Positions 32,717 to 41,770 of a DNA stretch of 64,000 bases are shown piece after piece. The notes under the pieces are model-generated. The model was not told the DNA's origin. It did no database searches and saw only the letters and a program-made list of their open reading frames with translations. This DNA is from Humibacter sp. RRB41. Its GTDB lineage: Bacteria > Actinomycetota > Actinomycetes > Actinomycetales > Microbacteriaceae. A program made the translations under genes and the position numbers. The stretch's first letter is position 1; each line of letters opens with the position of its first letter. The stretch lies in contig NZ_JAKWJQ010000002.1 in assembly GCF_022761015.1 (NCBI RefSeq), positions 372,001-436,000 on the forward strand, written 5' to 3'.

Positions 32717-34801
32717 TCAGGCGTCGATACGGTCGCGACTGAGCTGGTCGCTGCCGGAGATGATGAACTCCTTGCGCGGCGCGACGTCGTTGCCCATCAG
32801 TACCTCGAAGACCTCGGCGGCCCGCTCGGCGTCGTCGACCTTGACCCTGCGCAGCAGTCGGTGAGTTCGGTCCATCGTCGTAGTGGCGAGCTGGTCGGCA
32901 TCCATTTCGCCGAGACCCTTATAGCGCTGCGGCGGTTCCTGCCAGCGCCGGCCGGACTTCTTGAGGTTGCCGAGCACGGCGTGCAACTCCTGGTCGGAGT
33001 ACGTGTAGATCGTCTCGTTCGGCTTCGACCCAGGGTTGATCGCGATCACCCTGTGCAGCGGGGGAACCGCGGCGAAGACCCGTCCAGCCTCGATCATCGG
33101 CCGCATGTACCGGAAGAACAGGGTGAGCAGCAGCGTGCGGATGTGCGCGCCGTCGACATCGGCATCGCTCATGATGATGACCTTGCCGTAGCGGGCCGAA
33201 GCGAGGTCGAACGTGCGACCGGAGCCGGCGCCGATCACCTGGATGATCGAAGCGCACTCGGCATTGCTGAGCATGTCGGAGACTGATGCCTTCTGCACGT
33301 TCAGGATCTTGCCGCGAATCGGCAGGAGCGCCTGGTGTTCGCTGTCCCTGGCGCGACGCGCAGTGCCGAGGGCGGAGTCGCCCTCGACGATGAACAACTC
33401 GCTGTGGGCGACGTCGGTCGAACGGCAGTCAACGAGCTTCGGCGGCAGCGAGGATGTCTCGAGCGCGTTCTTTCGGCGCTGGGTCTCCTTGTGGGCGCGC
33501 GCCGAGATGCGCGACTTCATCTCTGAGACGACCTTGTCCAGAAGCAGAGCCGACTGCGCCTTGTCATCGCGCTTGGTCGAGGAGAAGCGAGCGGCGAGAC
33601 TGTCGGACACCACCTTGGAGACGATGGCACGCACTGCCGGGGTGCCGAGCACCTCCTTGGTCTGACCCTCGAACTGCGGCTCGGGGAGGCGCACCGTGAG
33701 CACGCCGGTCAGCCCGGCGAGGATGTCATCCTTCTCGAGCTTCTCATTGGCCGTCACCTTCAGACGACGCGCGTTCTGCTCCACCTGCTGACGGAAGAAC
33801 TTCATCACGCCCTGGTCGAAGCCGGCCTGGTGGCTGCCGCCTTTCGGCGTCGAGATGATGTTCACGAAGCTTCTGAGCACTGTGTCGTAGCCAGTGCCCC
33901 ACCGCAGAGCGATATCGACCTCGCACTCCCTGTTCACCTCGGTGGGGACCATGGCCCCTGAGCCGTTGAGCACGGGGACGGTCTCGACGAACGACCCGGT
34001 GCCGGTGAGTCGCCAGGTCTCGGTGATCGCCGAGTCGGGGGCCAGGTAGTCGGCGAACTCGCTGATGCCGCCCTCGTACGTGAAGTCGGTCTGCTCGGCG
34101 GCGTCCCCACGCGCGTCCGTGATCGCGATCGTGAGGCCGGGAACGAGGAACGCCGTCTGCCTGGCCCTCCCGATCAGGTCGTCGGCACTGAACTCGACGT
34201 TCTTGCCGAAGATCTGCTGGTCGGCCCAGTAACGGATGCGCGTGCCCGTGACACCCTTCGCCACCTTTCCGACAACCCGCAACTCGCTTCCGGACGAGAA
34301 CGGATGGAACGGCGAGTCGGGAGCCGGATCTCCGGCATCGTCGAACACCCCCGGCTCGCCGCGATGGAACGACATCGCCCAGGTCTTGCCGTTTCGATCG
34401 ACTTCCACGTCGAGGCGTTCGGACAGGGCGTTGACGACGGATGCGCCGACGCCGTGGAGCCCGCCGGACGACGAGTAGGAGCCTGAGCCGAACTTTCCGC
34501 CGGCGTGCAGCTTCGTGAAGACCACTTCGACGCCCGTCAGCCCGGTCTTGGGTTCGATGTCGACGGGGATGCCTCGCGCGCTGTCACGCACCTCGACGCT
34601 GTCGTCGGGGTGGAGCACCACGTCGATGCCGGTTCCGAATCCGGCGAGGGCCTCGTCGACGGAGTTGTCGATGATCTCCCAGAGGCAGTGCATGAGACCG
34701 CGGGCGTCCGTCGACCCGATGTACATGCCGGGGCGCTTTCGCACCGCCTCCAGTCCCTCGAGCACCGAGAGGTGTCTGGCGGAGTAATCGTTCGTCGCCA
34801 C
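32717..34801 (-). CDS. parE: DNA topoisomerase IV subunit B (GyrB/ParE family)
   Basis: A 694-aa ATPase subunit of a type IIA topoisomerase. GHKL motifs are EIIDNSVDEAL, DSARGIPVD and SSGGLHGVGASVVNALS; the TOPRIM domain has FIVEGDSA and IIMSDADVDGAHIRTLLL. Start GTG 34801 (VATNDYSARHLSVLEGL) has GGAGA about 6 nt upstream. It is convergent with the ParC-type gene 26 bp away rather than in an operon with it. At 694 aa without the insert of proteobacterial GyrB it fits ParE or a short GyrB. Confidence 0.92.
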   Translation of the reverse strand: MATNDYSARHLSVLEGLEAVRKRPGMYIGSTDARGLMHCLWEIIDNSVDEALAGFGTGIDVVLHPDDSVEVRDSARGIPVDIEPKTGLTGVEVVFTKLHAGGKFGSGSYSSSGGLHGVGASVVNALSERLDVEVDRNGKTWAMSFHRGEPGVFDDAGDPAPDSPFHPFSSGSELRVVGKVAKGVTGTRIRYWADQQIFGKNVEFSADDLIGRARQTAFLVPGLTIAITDARGDAAEQTDFTYEGGISEFADYLAPDSAITETWRLTGTGSFVETVPVLNGSGAMVPTEVNRECEVDIALRWGTGYDTVLRSFVNIISTPKGGSHQAGFDQGVMKFFRQQVEQNARRLKVTANEKLEKDDILAGLTGVLTVRLPEPQFEGQTKEVLGTPAVRAIVSKVVSDSLAARFSSTKRDDKAQSALLLDKVVSEMKSRISARAHKETQRRKNALETSSLPPKLVDCRSTDVAHSELFIVEGDSALGTARRARDSEHQALLPIRGKILNVQKASVSDMLSNAECASIIQVIGAGSGRTFDLASARYGKVIIMSDADVDGAHIRTLLLTLFFRYMRPMIEAGRVFAAVPPLHRVIAINPGSKPNETIYTYSDQELHAVLGNLKKSGRRWQEPPQRYKGLGEMDADQLATTTMDRTHRLLRRVKVDDAERAAEVFEVLMGNDVAPRKEFIISGSDQLSRDRIDA

Positions 34802-35069
34802 GCGAGTCTCCAGTCGTCGTCCGGCCCGTCTCTCTCGCCCAACGGCGCGACCTGGTCCGGACGTGCGCACCGAGAAGGAATCGGGCGTCTTTCAGACTAT
34901 CCGGCGGGCACCGCGGTCTCGTGCACCGACACCCGTTGGTGGACAGCGTGCCCCGATCGCCCTACGCGTACAGCGAAATGCAGTGGAATCGGGCATGCTC
35001 CCGGCGTCGACGTGCTTGTATTGGTGGCAACCACCCGCAAGGGTTCGGGCCTTCAGAAAGGAGCTCAGC

Positions 35070-35369: not shown

Positions 35370-36401
35370 TCAGAAGTGCATCAGCTCACGGAACCGCGGC
35401 AACGAGCCCGTGCGCACGCCTGTCGCACTCGGCTTGTTCTCGTAGGCGCCGGGCATCCAGTTGCCTTCGACGATGATGGGACCGCTCGGTGTGACGACGA
35501 CGTCCCAGCCGATGTATCGGATCTCGGGAACCACGCCGCTGACCTCGGTGGCGAGAGCGAGCACGGCGTCGGCCATCGGAAGCGTGAAGTCGACGATCGA
35601 CCTCCCCGTCCCCGGGTGGTTGGCATAGATGTGCTGGTGGGAGCCGTAGCCGGGGCCCTTCGACGCGCCGTGCTCGTCGAGAAGCGTGAAGAATCCGCCG
35701 AACGCCTGCTGGTCGCTTGCGCCCTTGCCCACACCGAACTTCTGCGCGAATGACAGCAGGTGCACCTCGCCTGCGTCGTCAAGGAACGTCGTGACGCGCG
35801 TGGTGTTGACGATGTCGGGGCTGACGTCCGTGAGCGCCGGATGCTGCACGATGTACTCCTCGAGCAGGGTCTGCCCCTTTTCGATGAGTTCTACGCGGAA
35901 CGCAGCCCAGTCGTCGATCTCCCTCGCCTCGTACCGCGACACTCCGTATCCGGAGTTGCTCACGGGGACCTTTCCGATCACCACACCGTGGCCTGTCACG
36001 AACTCACGCAGTTCGTCGGTCGTCGTCGGCTCGACCTCGAACCACTCGCGGCCGAGGTAACGATCGAAGATTCGATTGAACTCGATCTTGTCTTCGAATC
36101 GGCCCCGGAAGTCTGCGTCGTCGTAGCGCAGCGCCAGGTGGTTGGAGATCGCGTTCGTCATGAAGGTCGCACGCTCGGCACGGGTCAGGATCGCGAAGTC
36201 CCAGTCGACGTAGTCTTGAAATCCTGTGTCGCGAAAGCCCGCGTACCAGAGCATGTCCGTGAACACGGCCGGGGCCCATTTGCTGTGCTGGACGCTCACC
36301 TCCCTCGACCGCCGCCAGACACTCGGCAGGTCGAGGGCGCGGAAACGTTCACCGAAGTACGCCAGCCTCGAGCGCAAGCTGAGGCTCTTGCGCTCGGCCA
36401 T
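35370..36401 (-). CDS. ATP-grasp ligase, sugar-transfer-associated family
   Basis: A 343-aa protein of the ATP-grasp superfamily (Pfam ATPgrasp_ST type). Visible marks are FVTGHGVVIGKVPVSNSGYG for the nucleotide loop (two overlapping blocks), LLEEYIVQHPAL, NTTRVTTF, and the metal-binding end IGWDVVVTPSGPIIVEGN. Such enzymes form amide or thioester bonds through an acyl phosphate; the partner substrates are not known for this family. Its ATG overlaps the aminotransferase stop by one base (TGATG). It is last of the sigA-linked unit, and I infer that it ligates a diamino acid or its derivative. Confidence 0.88.
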   Translation of the reverse strand: MAERKSLSLRSRLAYFGERFRALDLPSVWRRSREVSVQHSKWAPAVFTDMLWYAGFRDTGFQDYVDWDFAILTRAERATFMTNAISNHLALRYDDADFRGRFEDKIEFNRIFDRYLGREWFEVEPTTTDELREFVTGHGVVIGKVPVSNSGYGVSRYEAREIDDWAAFRVELIEKGQTLLEEYIVQHPALTDVSPDIVNTTRVTTFLDDAGEVHLLSFAQKFGVGKGASDQQAFGGFFTLLDEHGASKGPGYGSHQHIYANHPGTGRSIVDFTLPMADAVLALATEVSGVVPEIRYIGWDVVVTPSGPIIVEGNWMPGAYENKPSATGVRTGSLPRFRELMHF

Positions 36402-37669
36402 CAGGCGAGATTCGCGATCGTCGCGTCGACCGCGGCGTCGATGATGTCGAGCCCCTTGGTCAATGTGTCCTGCTCGTCGTCGACGATCGCAGGCATGAGT
36501 TTGAGCACCTCGCTGAAGGGTCCCGAGGTTTCCACGATGAGGCCGTTGGCGAACGACTCGCGCGAGACCGCCGTGGCGATGCCGGAGCCGGGTGCGCTCA
36601 CGAGTCCTTGAAGGAGCCCCCGTCCCCTCCGTGCGAGGTGCTCGGGGTGCTTCGCGACGATGCCGTCGAGTCGTTCGGCGACGATGCCCGCGCGGCGGTG
36701 GACGGCTCGCGAGAATTCCGGATCTCTCCAGTAGGTCTCGAGGGCGACGGCGGCACCGACGAAGGCGACGTTGTTACCTCTGAAAGTTCCGCTGTGCACT
36801 CCTGGCTGCCAGATGTCCAGTTCGGGCTTGAGCAGCACGAGCGACATCGGGAAGCCGTAGCCGGACAAGGACTTCGACAGCGTCACGATGTCGGGAACGA
36901 TGCCGGCTTCTTCGAAGCTGAAGAAGTCTCCGCTGCGGCCGATGCCGATCTGGATCTCGTCGACGATGAGCAGGATGCCCTTCTCGGCGCAGAGTGCCGC
37001 TAGCGCCCGGAGCCACTCGGCCCGGGCGACGTTGACGCCGCCCTCGCCCTGCACGGTCTCGACGATGACCGCTGCCGGGAAGTCGAGTCCGCTGCCCGGA
37101 TCATCCAGCAAGGTGCGCAACTGGGCGACAGTGTCGGTCGTCTGGTCGAAGTATCCGTCGTAAGGGTGGAAGGTCACGTCACCGAGAGAGACGCCGGCTG
37201 CTGCGCGGAACTTGTCGTTGGCCGTCGCAGCGAGTGCTCCGAGCGAAACGCCATGGAATCCATGGGTGAAGGCGATGACCGAACGCCGTCCCGTCACCTG
37301 ACGCGCCAGCTTGAGAGCCGCCTCGACCGCGTTGGCACCGGTCGGACCGGTGAAATGCAGTCGGTAAGCGAGATTCCTCGGCGTCAGGATGATGTCGCGG
37401 AACGACTCGAGGAAGCGCTTCTTCGCTCCCGTGGCCATGTCGAGCGAGTGCTGAATGTGATCGCCGGCGAGGTAGTCGATCACCTGTTCTTTGATGATCG
37501 GGTCGTTGTGCCCGTAATTCAGCGCCCCGGCACCGCAGAAGAAGTCGATGTACTCATTGCCGTCCTCGTCCCAGACCAGCGAGCCGCGCGCCCGGTCGAA
37601 GATCACCGGGAACGACCGGATGTAGCTCCTGACCTCTGATTCCAGTTCGGAGAAAACAGTGAGATCCAC
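36401..37669 (-). CDS. EctB-type diaminobutyrate--2-oxoglutarate aminotransferase
   Basis: A 422-aa class III PLP aminotransferase very similar in motif order to EctB, which makes L-2,4-diaminobutyrate from aspartate semialdehyde. Diagnostic blocks are ELESEVRSYIRSFP, FFCGAGALNYGHND, TGPTGANAVEAALKLAR, VDEIQIGIGRSG and TLSKSLSGYGFPM with the PLP lysine (SLSKS). Start GTG 37669 has AGGAAGG 7 nt upstream. There are no ectA or ectC genes; its neighbours are racemase-like and ligase genes. I infer diaminobutyrate supply for something other than ectoine, possibly peptidoglycan. Confidence 0.92.
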   Translation of the reverse strand: MDLTVFSELESEVRSYIRSFPVIFDRARGSLVWDEDGNEYIDFFCGAGALNYGHNDPIIKEQVIDYLAGDHIQHSLDMATGAKKRFLESFRDIILTPRNLAYRLHFTGPTGANAVEAALKLARQVTGRRSVIAFTHGFHGVSLGALAATANDKFRAAAGVSLGDVTFHPYDGYFDQTTDTVAQLRTLLDDPGSGLDFPAAVIVETVQGEGGVNVARAEWLRALAALCAEKGILLIVDEIQIGIGRSGDFFSFEEAGIVPDIVTLSKSLSGYGFPMSLVLLKPELDIWQPGVHSGTFRGNNVAFVGAAVALETYWRDPEFSRAVHRRAGIVAERLDGIVAKHPEHLARRGRGLLQGLVSAPGSGIATAVSRESFANGLIVETSGPFSEVLKLMPAIVDDEQDTLTKGLDIIDAAVDATIANLA

Positions 37670-37764
37670 GTATGCGCCTTCCTAGCATGGCAGGGGATTT
37701 TCGGCCGATGACCGGATCGCGGTTGGCCGCCCGCCAGTCTACCGGCGCAGGTTGTGCGGGGGGC

Positions 37765-38832
37765 TCAGCGTGGCTGTTCGGTGCGCCCGTCGCCCGCCTC
37801 GACGTAGCGGCGCGGCACCCGCACGGGGATGCCTGTGAGGATCTCGTCGCCGATGGTGTCCGCCCATTCCGCCCACTCCGTCGGGGTGGGTTCGCCGCGA
37901 AGGCCGGAACCGAACACGATGACCGGGTCCCCGGTCTGCAGACCGGCCGCCTCGACGATCACACTGCTGTCCACTCCGATCTCTGCGAGCGGATGCCTGT
38001 GCCCGCGCACCCAGACCGACGCCGCGTGCGCGGCGCGCGCCGGCAGGCCATCGGCCCACCCTGCGGAGATCCGCGCGGTGTGCCCGCTAACCTCGCCGAC
38101 CGTGGTCGCGAGGGTCATCGTGGGAACGACACCGATGTCGGCTGCACTGCGGTCGTCGAACGGCGATACCCCGTATGCGGCGATGCCGAACCGCACCATG
38201 TCGAAGCGGGCCTCCGGCATCCTGATGCCCGCGGAGCTCGCAGCCAGATGAATGAGTTCAGGATGCACTCGGCGGGCCGCAGCCACAGCGATCGCCTCGC
38301 GAAAGCGACGCAGTGCCTCTTCATCGTCGCCGACCGATGCGTCGGCGAGATGGGACCAGATCCCGCGGATGCGCAGCGCGCCCGCCCTCTCCCCCGCGAT
38401 GGCCGCATCGAGGAGGCCGGGCCATTCGTCTTCGGTCGCACCGTTCCTGTGGAGTCCGGTATCGATCTTCAGATGTACCTGCAACGGGACGGCGGACTGT
38501 GCGGTCAGCGCAGCGCGGAGCTCGTCCTCCGTCGAGATGCCGACGTCGATGTGCCTGCCGGCCGCTGCCGCGAAGTCGGCGCCGGAGCCGTGCAGCCACG
38601 CGAACAGCGGCGCATCGATGCCCGTATCGCGGAGGCGCAGACCCTCGGAGATCTCCAGCACGCCGAGCCAGGATGCCCCCGCCTCGATGGCGGGACGGGC
38701 GAGCTGGAGCATGCCGTGACCGTAGGCATCCGCTTTGAGCATCGCCATGACGGGAGTGGGTGCCGCGATATCGCCGAGAAGCTGCAGATTCGACCGGAAG
38801 ACGTCGAGATCGACGGTCGCAACCGCGCTCAC
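37765..38832 (-). CDS. Alanine-racemase-family subunit A (PLP barrel intact, catalytic Tyr loop lost)
   Basis: A 355-aa fold-type III PLP protein. The barrel keeps the PLP lysine (Lys33 in MAMLKADAYGHG), KIDTGLHRNG, IWSHLADAS and the phosphate-contact DMVRFGIAAYGVSP. In the C-terminal domain the segment that carries the catalytic tyrosine (VSYGxT) is deleted: MTLATTVGEVSGHTARI runs straight into SAGWADGLP. The MDQ motif is degraded to GVDSS. Homodimeric racemases need both residues. Start GTG 38832 overlaps the stop of the companion gene (GTGA). I infer that it pairs with that protein; automatic annotation would call it Alr. Confidence 0.88.
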   Translation of the reverse strand: MSAVATVDLDVFRSNLQLLGDIAAPTPVMAMLKADAYGHGMLQLARPAIEAGASWLGVLEISEGLRLRDTGIDAPLFAWLHGSGADFAAAAGRHIDVGISTEDELRAALTAQSAVPLQVHLKIDTGLHRNGATEDEWPGLLDAAIAGERAGALRIRGIWSHLADASVGDDEEALRRFREAIAVAAARRVHPELIHLAASSAGIRMPEARFDMVRFGIAAYGVSPFDDRSAADIGVVPTMTLATTVGEVSGHTARISAGWADGLPARAAHAASVWVRGHRHPLAEIGVDSSVIVEAAGLQTGDPVIVFGSGLRGEPTPTEWAEWADTIGDEILTGIPVRVPRRYVEAGDGRTEQPR

Positions 38833-39473
38833 GCCGTCACCCAAACGCGTTGGAAACGAGCTCCCAGCCCGGCCGAGAGTTCGAGAGGAGAGCGGCCGGA
38901 TGCCGCCGCCCATTCGCCCGGCGACGGCGCGCCCGGCTGCGCGCCCCAGAGGATCACATCGTCGCCGGACACCACGCGCTCGTCGCCGAGGTCGACCATG
39001 AACTGATCCATCGCCACACGACCGGCGAGCACATGCTGCGCGCCGGCGAGCAGGACGTGAGCCTTGTTCGACGCCGAGCGGGGAACGCCGTCGGCGTACC
39101 CGAGACCGACGAGCGCTAGATAGGAGTCGGAGGCGACCCGGTACGTGTAGCCGTAGGAGACCGGGCTACCGGCAGGGACGCGCTTGCAGGAGATGACCTC
39201 ACCCGTCACCGTCATGACGGGCGCCGCATCGGGAGCCGTGCCGTAAAGAGCAGCCGTCACATCCGCATCCACGGCGTCGCGATACATGTTGACGTCGTCG
39301 TGCGCGAACCGGTCGAATCCATGCGAACGTGCCGCTGCCTGGACCTCGACGGTGCCGTGCCCGAAAGCGTCGGCGCGCAGATCGAGTACGACGTCACGAG
39401 GCCCGCGCTGCGCCGCGATGGAATCGAGCGCAACGTGCAGTGTCGCGCGCGAGAGCGTGATTCGTCTGCGCAT
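38829..39473 (-). CDS. Alanine-racemase-family subunit B (catalytic Tyr domain, truncated barrel)
   Basis: A 214-aa protein made mostly of the C-terminal domain of an alanine racemase. It keeps the catalytic tyrosine (Tyr107 in GSPVSYGYTY), GLGYADGVPR and AGRVAMDQFMVDLGD. Its N-terminal barrel is cut to about 85 residues; DLRADAFGHG aligns with KADAYGHG but Arg33 replaces the PLP lysine. Alone it cannot bind PLP as an aldimine. ATG 39473 lies 4 nt after the ligase stop, and the stop overlaps the subunit A start. It may supply Tyr and MDQ in trans to subunit A. A decaying pseudogene is the alternative, but the frame and motifs are intact. Confidence 0.85.
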   Translation of the reverse strand: MRRRITLSRATLHVALDSIAAQRGPRDVVLDLRADAFGHGTVEVQAAARSHGFDRFAHDDVNMYRDAVDADVTAALYGTAPDAAPVMTVTGEVISCKRVPAGSPVSYGYTYRVASDSYLALVGLGYADGVPRSASNKAHVLLAGAQHVLAGRVAMDQFMVDLGDERVVSGDDVILWGAQPGAPSPGEWAAASGRSPLELSAGLGARFQRVWVTA

Positions 39474-39477
39474 CTCG

Positions 39478-40185
39478 TCAGCTGACCCGGACGATACCCA
39501 TCGGTGTGCTCTGCGTGCCCTGTCCCAGCGGGTTGTCCTGCAAGATGCGCACAAGGGCGGTATCCCGCTTCGAGCCGAGCGTCGAGCCGAGGATGTTACC
39601 GCCGAGGTCGTTGATGTCCACGATGGCCACGTCGACACCACCAAGCGCTGCGCTGAGTTGTGCCGCCACCTTCTTCGGTTGCGCCGGCGCCAGGACCACC
39701 TGCGAGTCGTACGGCGGGATCGTGCCCTCCGTCGGTCCGTCGATGCCGCGCGCCTTCGGACCGGCGATGCGGTAGAAGTCGCCCTTCCGGCCCAGCTTCT
39801 TCGTGACCGCGGCGACGGCTGCTGCGAACAGGATCCGGACGGTTCCACACTCGCGCAACGCCATCTCCATCGTCTCCGGCATGCCGAGTCCGATGCCGTG
39901 CGGAGTCTTCTGCACGTACCCGGACAACGTCACCGCCAGCTTGCGCGGTTCGATGTCTTCGATCGGGTACGAACGTCCCTGGGTGATTCCGACGATCTTC
40001 TCGGTCACGAACAAAACGTCGCCAGGCCGTAGCTCGGGCTTCGCGGCCGCAGTCACGACTGCGACGAGGTCGTCGCCTCGAACGACCAGTGGCGTCTTGA
40101 TCGGAATGCGGTGATATTCGACGCCGTCGACGGCGATCGACAGCTCTTTGCCGGCGTTGGCGCTCGGCTCTGCCGCTCTACTCAA
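39478..40185 (-). CDS. CofE-like ligase (F420-0:gamma-glutamyl ligase family)
   Basis: A 235-aa protein of the CofE family, whose known member adds L-glutamate to coenzyme F420-0 with GTP. Family features are the N-terminal strand [29 protein letters not shown], and the C-terminal [13 protein letters not shown]. No other F420 gene is nearby, and the context is amino-acid racemisation and ligation, so another carboxylate-amine ligation is likely. Start TTG 40185 lies inside the last codons of sigA (8-bp overlap); no better in-frame start is seen. It leads the five-gene unit. Confidence 0.85.
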
Positions 40186-41536
40186 GGTAGTCCCGCAGCG
40201 ACTGCGAACGGGACGGGTGACGGAGCTTGGCCATCGTCTTCGACTCGATCTGACGGATGCGCTCGCGCGTCACCCCGAACGTGTCACCGATCTGGTCGAG
40301 CGTCTTCGGCATCCCGTCGCCGAGTCCGAAGCGCATGCGGATCACGCCGGCTTCGCGCTCGGAGAGCGAGTCGAGCAGGCTCTCGAGCTGCTTCTGCAAC
40401 ATCGTGAATCCAACGGCATCCGCCGGCACCACGGCCTCGGTGTCCTCGATGAGGTCACCGAATTCGCTGTCGCCATCTTCGCCCAGCGGAGTGTGCAGCG
40501 AAATCGGCTCCCGGCCGTACTTCTGCACCTCGACGACCTTCTCAGGGGTCATATCGAGCTCCTTCGAGAGCTCCTCTGGCGTGGGCTCGCGGCCGAGATC
40601 CTGCAGCATCTGACGCTGAACGCGTGCGAGCTTGTTGATGACCTCGACCATGTGCACCGGGATGCGGATGGTGCGTGCCTGGTCGGCCATGGCACGTGTG
40701 ATGGCCTGACGGATCCACCACGTCGCATAGGTGGAGAACTTGAAGCCCTTCGTGTAGTCGAACTTCTCGACGGCACGGATCAGGCCGAGGTTGCCCTCCT
40801 GGATCAGGTCGAGGAACTGCATTCCACGTCCGGTGTAGCGCTTGGCCAGTGAGACCACGAGACGCAGGTTGGCGCCGAGCAGGTGGCTCTTCGCCCGCTG
40901 CCCGTCACGGGCCACCCAACCGAGGTCGCGGCCCAGCTGCGAACGCTTCTCCTGGTCGGTCATCACGCCGAGCTTCTCTTCGGCGAACAGCCCGGCCTCG
41001 ATGCGCATCGCCAGTTCGACCTCTTCGGCCGCGTTCAGAAGCGCGACCTTTCCGATCTGCTTCAGGTAATCCTTGACAGGGTCGGCGGTCGCACCCGTGA
41101 TCTGCGCCGAGTAGACGGGGATGTCGTCGTCCTCGTCGACAGCACGCAAGACGATCGCTCCGGTCGGAAGCACTTCGGCCTTGGCGGCGTCACCTTCCGT
41201 GTCGTCGGAATCGCCGTCGGAAGTCGTCTTCGCCTCGTCGGTGGCGTCAGCGGACTCTTCCGCAACCTGGGTCTCGTCGAGTTCGGCCTCGTCGGCCTCG
41301 TCGTCGCCGGACTTCGAGGGCGATGCCTTCGCTGCTGCCTTGGCAGGCGAAGCCTTGCCGGTGGCCCTCGTCGTGGTCTTCGCCGGCGCCTTGGAAGCCG
41401 TCTTCGCGGCAGGCTTCGCCGCAGGCTTGGCAGCTGTCGCCTTCGACGCGCTGCTACGTGACGCCGTGGTCTTCTTCACCACTGTCGTCGTGGGCTCCTC
41501 TACGATGCTGGGGGCTACAGCCGCTTTGGTTGCCAT
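40178..41536 (-). CDS. sigA: Primary RNA polymerase sigma factor (RpoD/SigA)
   Basis: A 452-aa housekeeping sigma-70. The first 140 residues are Ala/Lys/Thr-rich and then acidic. Region 1.2 begins [11 protein letters not shown]; region 2 has [36 protein letters not shown] and [17 protein letters not shown]; region 3 and region 4.2 ([19 protein letters not shown]) end with [11 protein letters not shown]. Start ATG 41536 follows GGAAGG. Its 3' end overlaps the CofE-like gene, so the cell-wall-type unit downstream may be expressed with it. Confidence 0.97.
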
Positions 41537-41770
41537 GGAGTTCACCTTCCAGCCCTCCTCCATCTACACGCGCAACGGTGTGGATGACGAGGGTTCGGGT
41601 CGCTTGCGGACACTATGAGGACCCATGTCAAGTCCGGGCGCTTCGCACCACGCTCTCGATCGGCCTTGAGGCCAAGCGAGTACGCCGTACAGTCCGGAGG
41701 TGAACGGGTCCAATCATTGATTATTGCACGGTCTGGGCACCGATCGCGCATCGCCGCCTAGCAACGTCAC

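Follow-up and report, generated by a model that had tools for sequence, protein, structure and literature searches.

Complementary half-racemases in Microbacteriaceae: a putative one-site heterodimer of the alanine racemase family

The closest described systems are the bacterial alanine racemases, fold-type III PLP enzymes (TIGR00492; structures 1vfh, 5fac and 1xfc) that have the fold, the PLP lysine motif and the catalytic tyrosine in common with the two proteins, A and B, described here. Known alanine racemases are homodimers with both catalytic residues on every chain, whereas in A and B these residues lie on two proteins and one site would be left. Lysine and broad-spectrum racemases (4dza, 4dyj, BsrV) are likewise complete homodimers and act on basic amino acids. 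They have the same fold as A and B and the kind of substrate that we propose for the pair, but resemble A and B less than actinobacterial alanine racemases do. The active sites of the homodimer are each formed by the N-terminal domain of one chain and the C-terminal domain of the other (PMC3245724), and this principle, a barrel from one chain with a C-terminal domain from its partner, would be shared by A and B. A parallel outside this fold is the trypanosomatid deoxyhypusine synthase, whose active complex is described as joining a catalytically impaired and a dead paralogue (PMC3663545). Fold and reaction differ, and the partner there brings a 3000-fold activation, whereas the partner of A would supply a second catalytic base (PMC3663545).

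A search of the open-licence literature found no description of a heterodimeric, split or two-component alanine racemase. Here we describe two overlapping genes in a 64,000-nucleotide stretch of Humibacter sp. RRB41 DNA (the window), whose products, judged by their sequences, very likely form an obligate heterodimer. Alanine racemase is a classic drug target, and such a pair, together with its fused relatives, would convert its shared-site homodimer into a natural one-site enzyme, either heterodimeric or single-chain.

The two half-racemases of the window

The features of the locus are collected in Table 1. In subunit B, residue 107 is a tyrosine within VSYGYTY, equivalent to Tyr265 in Geobacillus numbering, and GRVAMDQ is present, while residue 33 is an arginine where the PLP lysine would be expected. 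The barrel of B has shrunk to about 85 residues, and Ala_racemase_C is its sole Pfam match (4.5e-35, profile positions 1-126 of 127). B proteins form a length series, from nearly full-length yet lysine-less chains of 343-389 aa (G001-G004, G012, G094) down to 181-200 aa (G154, G097, G005). Many B proteins retain the residues flanking the lost lysine (RADAFGHG or similar; residues 28-40 of the window protein) despite the loss of the barrel.

Table 1. Positions in the window of the half-racemase genes, their key sites and their neighbours; the flanking genes are those that we take to be rpoD and parE
Feature	Position	Strand	Description
rpoD-type sigma factor	40178..41563	-	Matched to relatives by sequence; flank of conserved slot
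CofE-like protein	39478..40185	-	235 aa; PF01996 F420_ligase, 2.6e-14
Subunit B	38829..39473	-	214 aa; racemase C-terminal domain; one of two half-racemase ORFs
Catalytic Tyr107 codon of B	39153..39155	-	Computed from ORF and residue number
GTGA overlap, stop of B and start of A	38829..38832	-	Read from sequence
Subunit A	37765..38832	-	355 aa from GTG; complete PLP barrel; Lys33
PLP lysine Lys33 codon of A	38734..38736	-	Computed from ORF and residue number
Tyrosine-loop gap of A relative to complete racemases	~38078..38085	-	From alignment; coordinates approximate
EctB-like diaminobutyrate--2-oxoglutarate transaminase	36401..37669	-	422 aa; NF006733, TIGR02407
ATP-grasp protein	35370..36401	-	343 aa; PF14397, 4.1e-29
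parE/gyrB-type topoisomerase subunit	32717..34870	-	Matched to relatives by sequence; other flank of slot

Subunit A, for which a longer in-frame start would give 382 aa, covers the Pfam domain Ala_racemase_N whole (7.8e-55) and matches Ala_racemase_C from profile position 32 only. The missing first 31 positions include the catalytic-tyrosine loop; in alignment with 1vfh, A falls into two pieces, with the GVSYGHHYVT stretch absent between them, and VDS replaces MDQ. These observations bear out the original prediction, which had described a 355-aa protein keeping Lys33, with its tyrosine loop deleted and MDQ degraded, and a 214-aa partner with Tyr107, AGRVAMDQ, Arg33 and a barrel of about 85 residues; the GTGA overlap that it had named is likewise present, and may couple the translation of B and A.

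AlphaFold models of both halves, built on alignments with 13 complete racemases among their 19 rows, have a mean pLDDT of 92.9 (A) and 91.9 (B). The model of A aligns with 1vfh over 348 of 355 residues (Z 45.7, rmsd 1.6) and that of B with 1vft_A over 213 of 214 (Z 22.9, rmsd 2.1). A is predicted to be a complete barrel with a C-terminal domain, and B a compact protein resembling a racemase that lacks the greater part of its barrel. The listed Foldseek and VIA-align matches to the models are all racemases, or an engineered protein (4ils).

Against TIGR00492 (cut-off 168 bits), A scores just over at 176.3 bits and B under at 122.9, and neither chain holds both the PLP lysine and the catalytic tyrosine, A having the lysine only and B the tyrosine only. 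Each half is homologous to the alanine racemase family and neither is a complete member. Together, the two carry the complete catalytic residue set of a TIGR00492 alanine racemase, with Lys39, Tyr43, Arg136, His166, Ser204 and Arg219 supplied by A, and Tyr265, Met312 and Asp313 by B (Geobacillus numbering).

The proposed heterodimer would have the geometry of the alanine racemase dimer, with one active site instead of two. PLP would be bound to Lys33 within the barrel of A, and the C-terminal domain of B would supply the opposite catalytic base, Tyr107, along with the Met and Asp of GRVAMDQ. The second ancestral site would be gone, B having no lysine and little barrel, and A having no tyrosine loop. 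Such an arrangement would have originated from two racemase paralogues, probably in tandem, that lost complementary residues.

Conservation of the split and its fused forms

The family survey covered 299 genomes with PF00842 and 130 with a loop-less A-domain profile. An A domain under 430 bases long indicates that the loop is missing, and the latter profile gave such a domain in at least 36 of the 130 genomes. In 248 genomes from the order, every match below 430 bases, among the matches listed, falls in Microbacteriaceae, at a threshold that divergent cases may miss. Residues were typed in 53 A and 53 B proteins, relatives included, from loci chosen for a suspected loop-less A or for neighbouring racemase domains, and the counts describe these chosen loci. 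They span 26 genus labels, with both genes observed in 24 of these, as well as named Microbacterium species and one Micrococcales MAG. A contig scan gave at least 80 loci, mostly complete racemases; of the 80 listed, 18 entered the counts and trees, and half pairs occur in six (L133, L140, L151, L154 and L160 in Microbacterium, L109 in the MAG), and also in M. oxydans (L189) and M. sufflavum (L190, L191).

Both genes are present in 52 loci, the window included, as neighbours on the same strand, either overlapping or separated by no more than 49 bases. The order is B then A in 49/49 loci, and A then B in the three g88 loci, which lie at the alr locus. Among the typed loci, A and B are always neighbours; the two exceptions, a lone A (L034) and a lone B (L030), each lie at a contig end. 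This co-occurrence supports the original prediction. A sequencing or frame artefact is ruled out by the 52 loci across many genomes.

The classes A, B and complete are defined by Lys39 and Tyr265, so the counts in these two columns are circular (53 and 0 of 53 A proteins; 0 and 53 of 53 B proteins), and the independent columns are Arg136, His166, Arg219 and Met312. The first three of these are present in all 53 A proteins, where Met312 is mostly lost. Met312 is present in all 53 B proteins, with Asp313 as D in 49 and N in 4, and His166 in two. The complete racemases have all six residues, each in 69/69, and no typed ORF lacks both Lys39 and Tyr265. The C-terminal domain of A has decayed unevenly, with Asp313 in 35 of 53 proteins and Tyr284 in 16; at single loci, the A of L071 retains the loop length with Gly for Tyr, and that of G019 has Asn for Tyr43. 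This complementary loss recurs across the 52 two-gene loci and is therefore not attributable to chance.

Three genera (g21, g84 and g63) have a single chain of about 600 aa at the alr locus, composed of an A half followed by a B half. The lysine lies in the first half and the tyrosine in the second in 10/10 fused chains, and the halves show the residue pattern of the split pairs. In g63 (L093, L094, L095), the fused ORF runs on into a TsaE domain.

Could A be an enzyme by itself, either as a homodimer without the second tyrosine or with another PLP reaction, and B its regulator or stabiliser? The tested barrel residues are indeed kept in A, with the one Tyr43 exception, and the barrel is predicted to be complete, but B holds exactly the catalytic residues that A is missing (Tyr265 and Met312 in 53/53), the fusions unite the two functions in 10/10 cases, and no typed A stands without B other than at a contig end. 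We regard this explanation as very unlikely, and A as a lone enzyme was set aside on the pairing and the fusions. In 11 close pairs of relatives, with the window pair outside the comparison, dN/dS (Nei-Gojobori) ranges over 0.10-0.27 in the A genes and 0.13-0.37 in the B genes, with 0.16 in two fusion comparisons; by this measure, the A and B genes are under purifying selection in those pairs. Decay of a duplicated racemase into pseudogenes, which would account for the parts of the ancestral enzyme missing from both proteins and might apply to a window pair that stands outside the selection test, has next to no probability beside the dN/dS of 0.10-0.37 in relatives, open frames under 26 genus labels and a maintained gene order; we reject it on the purifying selection in the relatives.

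By PF00842, seven genomes are fusion-only, with all matches in a single ORF (G066, G128, G178, G024, G111, G166, G144), and four have half pairs only: two pairs each in G091, G148 and G192 (the second pair of G192 known from PF00842 matches alone, its residues untyped) and one in G019. No complete racemase was found by PF00842 in these 11 genomes, a count that leaves aside G087, G188 and G265, which have further PF00842 matches. Matches to the D-alanine transaminase TIGR01121 above its cut-off were found in 0/16 genomes searched, the 11 included, and in 1/14 control genomes; 15 of the 16 have weak matches to this family, and G144 has none. The D-alanine of the 11 genomes would thus very probably come from split or fused racemases. 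With no complete racemase beside their half pairs or fusions, the arrangement is therefore very probably active; this is the strongest argument for activity, and it covers relatives, mostly fusions or alr-locus pairs, and not the window pair. One of the 11, G019, which we presume to be Tropheryma whipplei, is a reduced genome of 927,303 bp (GC 46% over the stretch), and its split pair (L186) comprises the only racemase genes found.

The single pair of G019, with no other racemase found, also speaks against a role for B in binding other racemases, such as the housekeeping Alr, and inhibiting or retargeting them. The C-terminal domain that contacts the partner barrel is kept in B, as such a role would need, but B is paired with A, and fused chains exist; we consider it highly improbable that B acts in this manner. 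The pairing, the purifying selection, the natural fusions and the genomes with no other racemase instead all support what had been predicted from the window alone, that one active site is rebuilt across two subunits.

Gene neighbourhood and candidate substrate

MurT-GatD normally amidates the D-Glu of lipid II, and the carboxyl that it amidates is the one bearing the bridge in group B peptidoglycan. The usual location of the half-racemase pair is between rpoD and parE. In 40 loci compared (two alr-locus ones aside), MurT and GatD accompany the pair in 26, a CofE-like gene without MurT in nine, MurT and CofE in one and neither within the stretch in four, so that MurT or a CofE-like gene stands beside the pair in 36/40 loci. 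The MurT and GatD-like genes are related to the lipid II amidotransferase, but the catalytic cysteine of the GatD-like proteins is lost: Cys94 is replaced by Gly, Ala or Thr in 26/26 aligned proteins (L016-L019, L024, L030, L032-L034, L036, L038, L039, L041, L042, L044, L046, L050-L052, L054-L056, L060-L062, L071), and the histidine is also lost in 14 of them; five more GatD-like proteins (L109, L151, L160, L186, L199) lie outside this count. The L018 protein aligns to GatD of the PDB. It is possible that MurT beside a Cys-less GatD attaches an amino acid instead of ammonia.

In the direction of transcription on the minus strand, the window reads rpoD, CofE-like, B, A, EctB-like aminotransferase, ATP-grasp, further sequence and parE. 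A search of the window genome for MurT was negative, and the slot contains the CofE-like, EctB-like and ATP-grasp genes instead. The CofE-like protein scores 40 bits against TIGR01916 (F420-0:L-glutamate ligase), far below the cut-off of 180.65, and may be regarded as a candidate amide ligase, in the slot that MurT-GatD occupies in congeners. The EctB-like protein passes both of its models (NF006733, 625.6 bits, cut-off 438; TIGR02407, 603 bits, cut-off 552.2) and is the sole match at E<=1e-60 within the window genome; at the same threshold there is none in four congeners, among them G002, which is 87% complete. The ATP-grasp gene also adjoins the pair in several relatives. The four congeners have MurT-GatD-B-A in the rpoD-parE slot. 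Compared with them, the window cassette (35370-40185) looks as if it had been exchanged: its B-A pair belongs to another lineage, and its other genes are CofE-like, EctB-like and ATP-grasp.

D-Ornithine is reported for M. sufflavum, and D-Orn, L-Lys or diaminobutyrate for Microbacterium (PMC10757982). M. sufflavum has two half pairs. The second of these (L190) adjoins a further ATP-grasp gene, and neither rpoD nor parE is matched in its stretch.

The gene context and these reported diamino acids favour a diamino-acid racemase, and we lean slightly towards a diamino acid as the substrate of the pair. In the window, the EctB-like neighbour points to 2,4-diaminobutyrate. That the site could suit a substrate other than alanine had been part of the original prediction, and this claim draws its support from gene context. 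Because the congeners have MurT-GatD in place of the EctB, CofE and ATP-grasp cassette, even members of one genus may use the pair on different substrates.

The main competing account is a heterodimeric alanine racemase, in which a duplicated alr was subfunctionalised neutrally and the substrate did not change. It agrees with the genomes whose half or fused racemases very probably supply D-alanine: G019, the three of g88 and the seven with fusions only. The window genome, however, retains a separate complete alr (glmS-alr-tsaE), the rpoD-parE A proteins form a lineage apart from this alr, and the pair adjoins peptidoglycan-modifying genes and, in the window, a diaminobutyrate aminotransferase; we consider the alanine-only account unlikely. 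We hold it on balance probable, from sequence and gene order, that A and B form a one-site heterodimer that racemises a diamino acid for the bridge of group B peptidoglycan. The window pair would then most likely act on a diamino acid. The EctB-like enzyme would provide this substrate, probably 2,4-diaminobutyrate, and the racemised product would form a D-diamino-acid bridge on D-Glu, with the CofE-like and ATP-grasp proteins as ligases.

In the open-licence literature we found neither a description of Microbacteriaceae with MurT and GatD nor a genetic description of the D-ornithine bridge ligase or biosynthesis genes of group B peptidoglycan. The neighbours of the pair are candidate genes for this bridge, which makes the question directly testable.

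Evolutionary origin of the halves

The barrel tree (132 rows, a quick search with SH-aLRT support only) groups the rpoD-parE A proteins, with support 97, with alr2, the gene that comes second in complete tandem pairs; at two places, complete alr2 genes fall inside this group of A proteins. The A proteins of g88 form one clade (100), which lies with the fusions in the housekeeping alr1 part of the tree (supports 84 to 92), and in the C-domain tree, built on few columns, the B proteins of g88 join alr2 (95). From these placements, the lysine half of g88 would descend from alr1 and its tyrosine half from alr2, opposite to what the rpoD-parE A proteins show. The rpoD-parE B proteins are a long-branched group in the C-domain tree. 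Eleven long B proteins have N-domains that fall on long branches nearer alr1, with support that is not usable; going by gene order, the rpoD-parE B may derive from alr1. Taken together, the trees suggest that the split arose repeatedly, once with swapped roles, which would make it a rare series of redundant sites divided between paralogues.

As a point against the heterodimer reading, some family members have two complete tandem racemases, with no half pair seen. In 17 of 19 genomes compared, two racemase domains lie about 1.1 to 1.3 kb apart, a PF00842 pattern that was not typed in every genome, and the partial domain match typical of A was found by PF00842 in 0/19. This pattern would fit, without proving, an ancestral heterodimer with two distinct sites.

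A tentative scenario, which as a whole we find somewhat doubtful, begins with a tandem alr1-alr2 heterodimer with two different sites, followed by complementary loss that left one site per lineage. At rpoD-parE, the alr2 lysine and, by gene order, the alr1 tyrosine would have been kept for a diamino acid; in g88, the alr1 lysine and the alr2 tyrosine, with roles swapped, would serve alanine; and in other lineages, the halves would have fused into a single chain with one complete site. The half-racemase cassette and MurT with a Cys-less GatD would then together build the D-diamino-acid bridge in group B peptidoglycan. Another complete racemase paralogue (L079, L096-L099, L192, L193, L198, L200) forms its own clade in the barrel tree, together with one sequence from another family.
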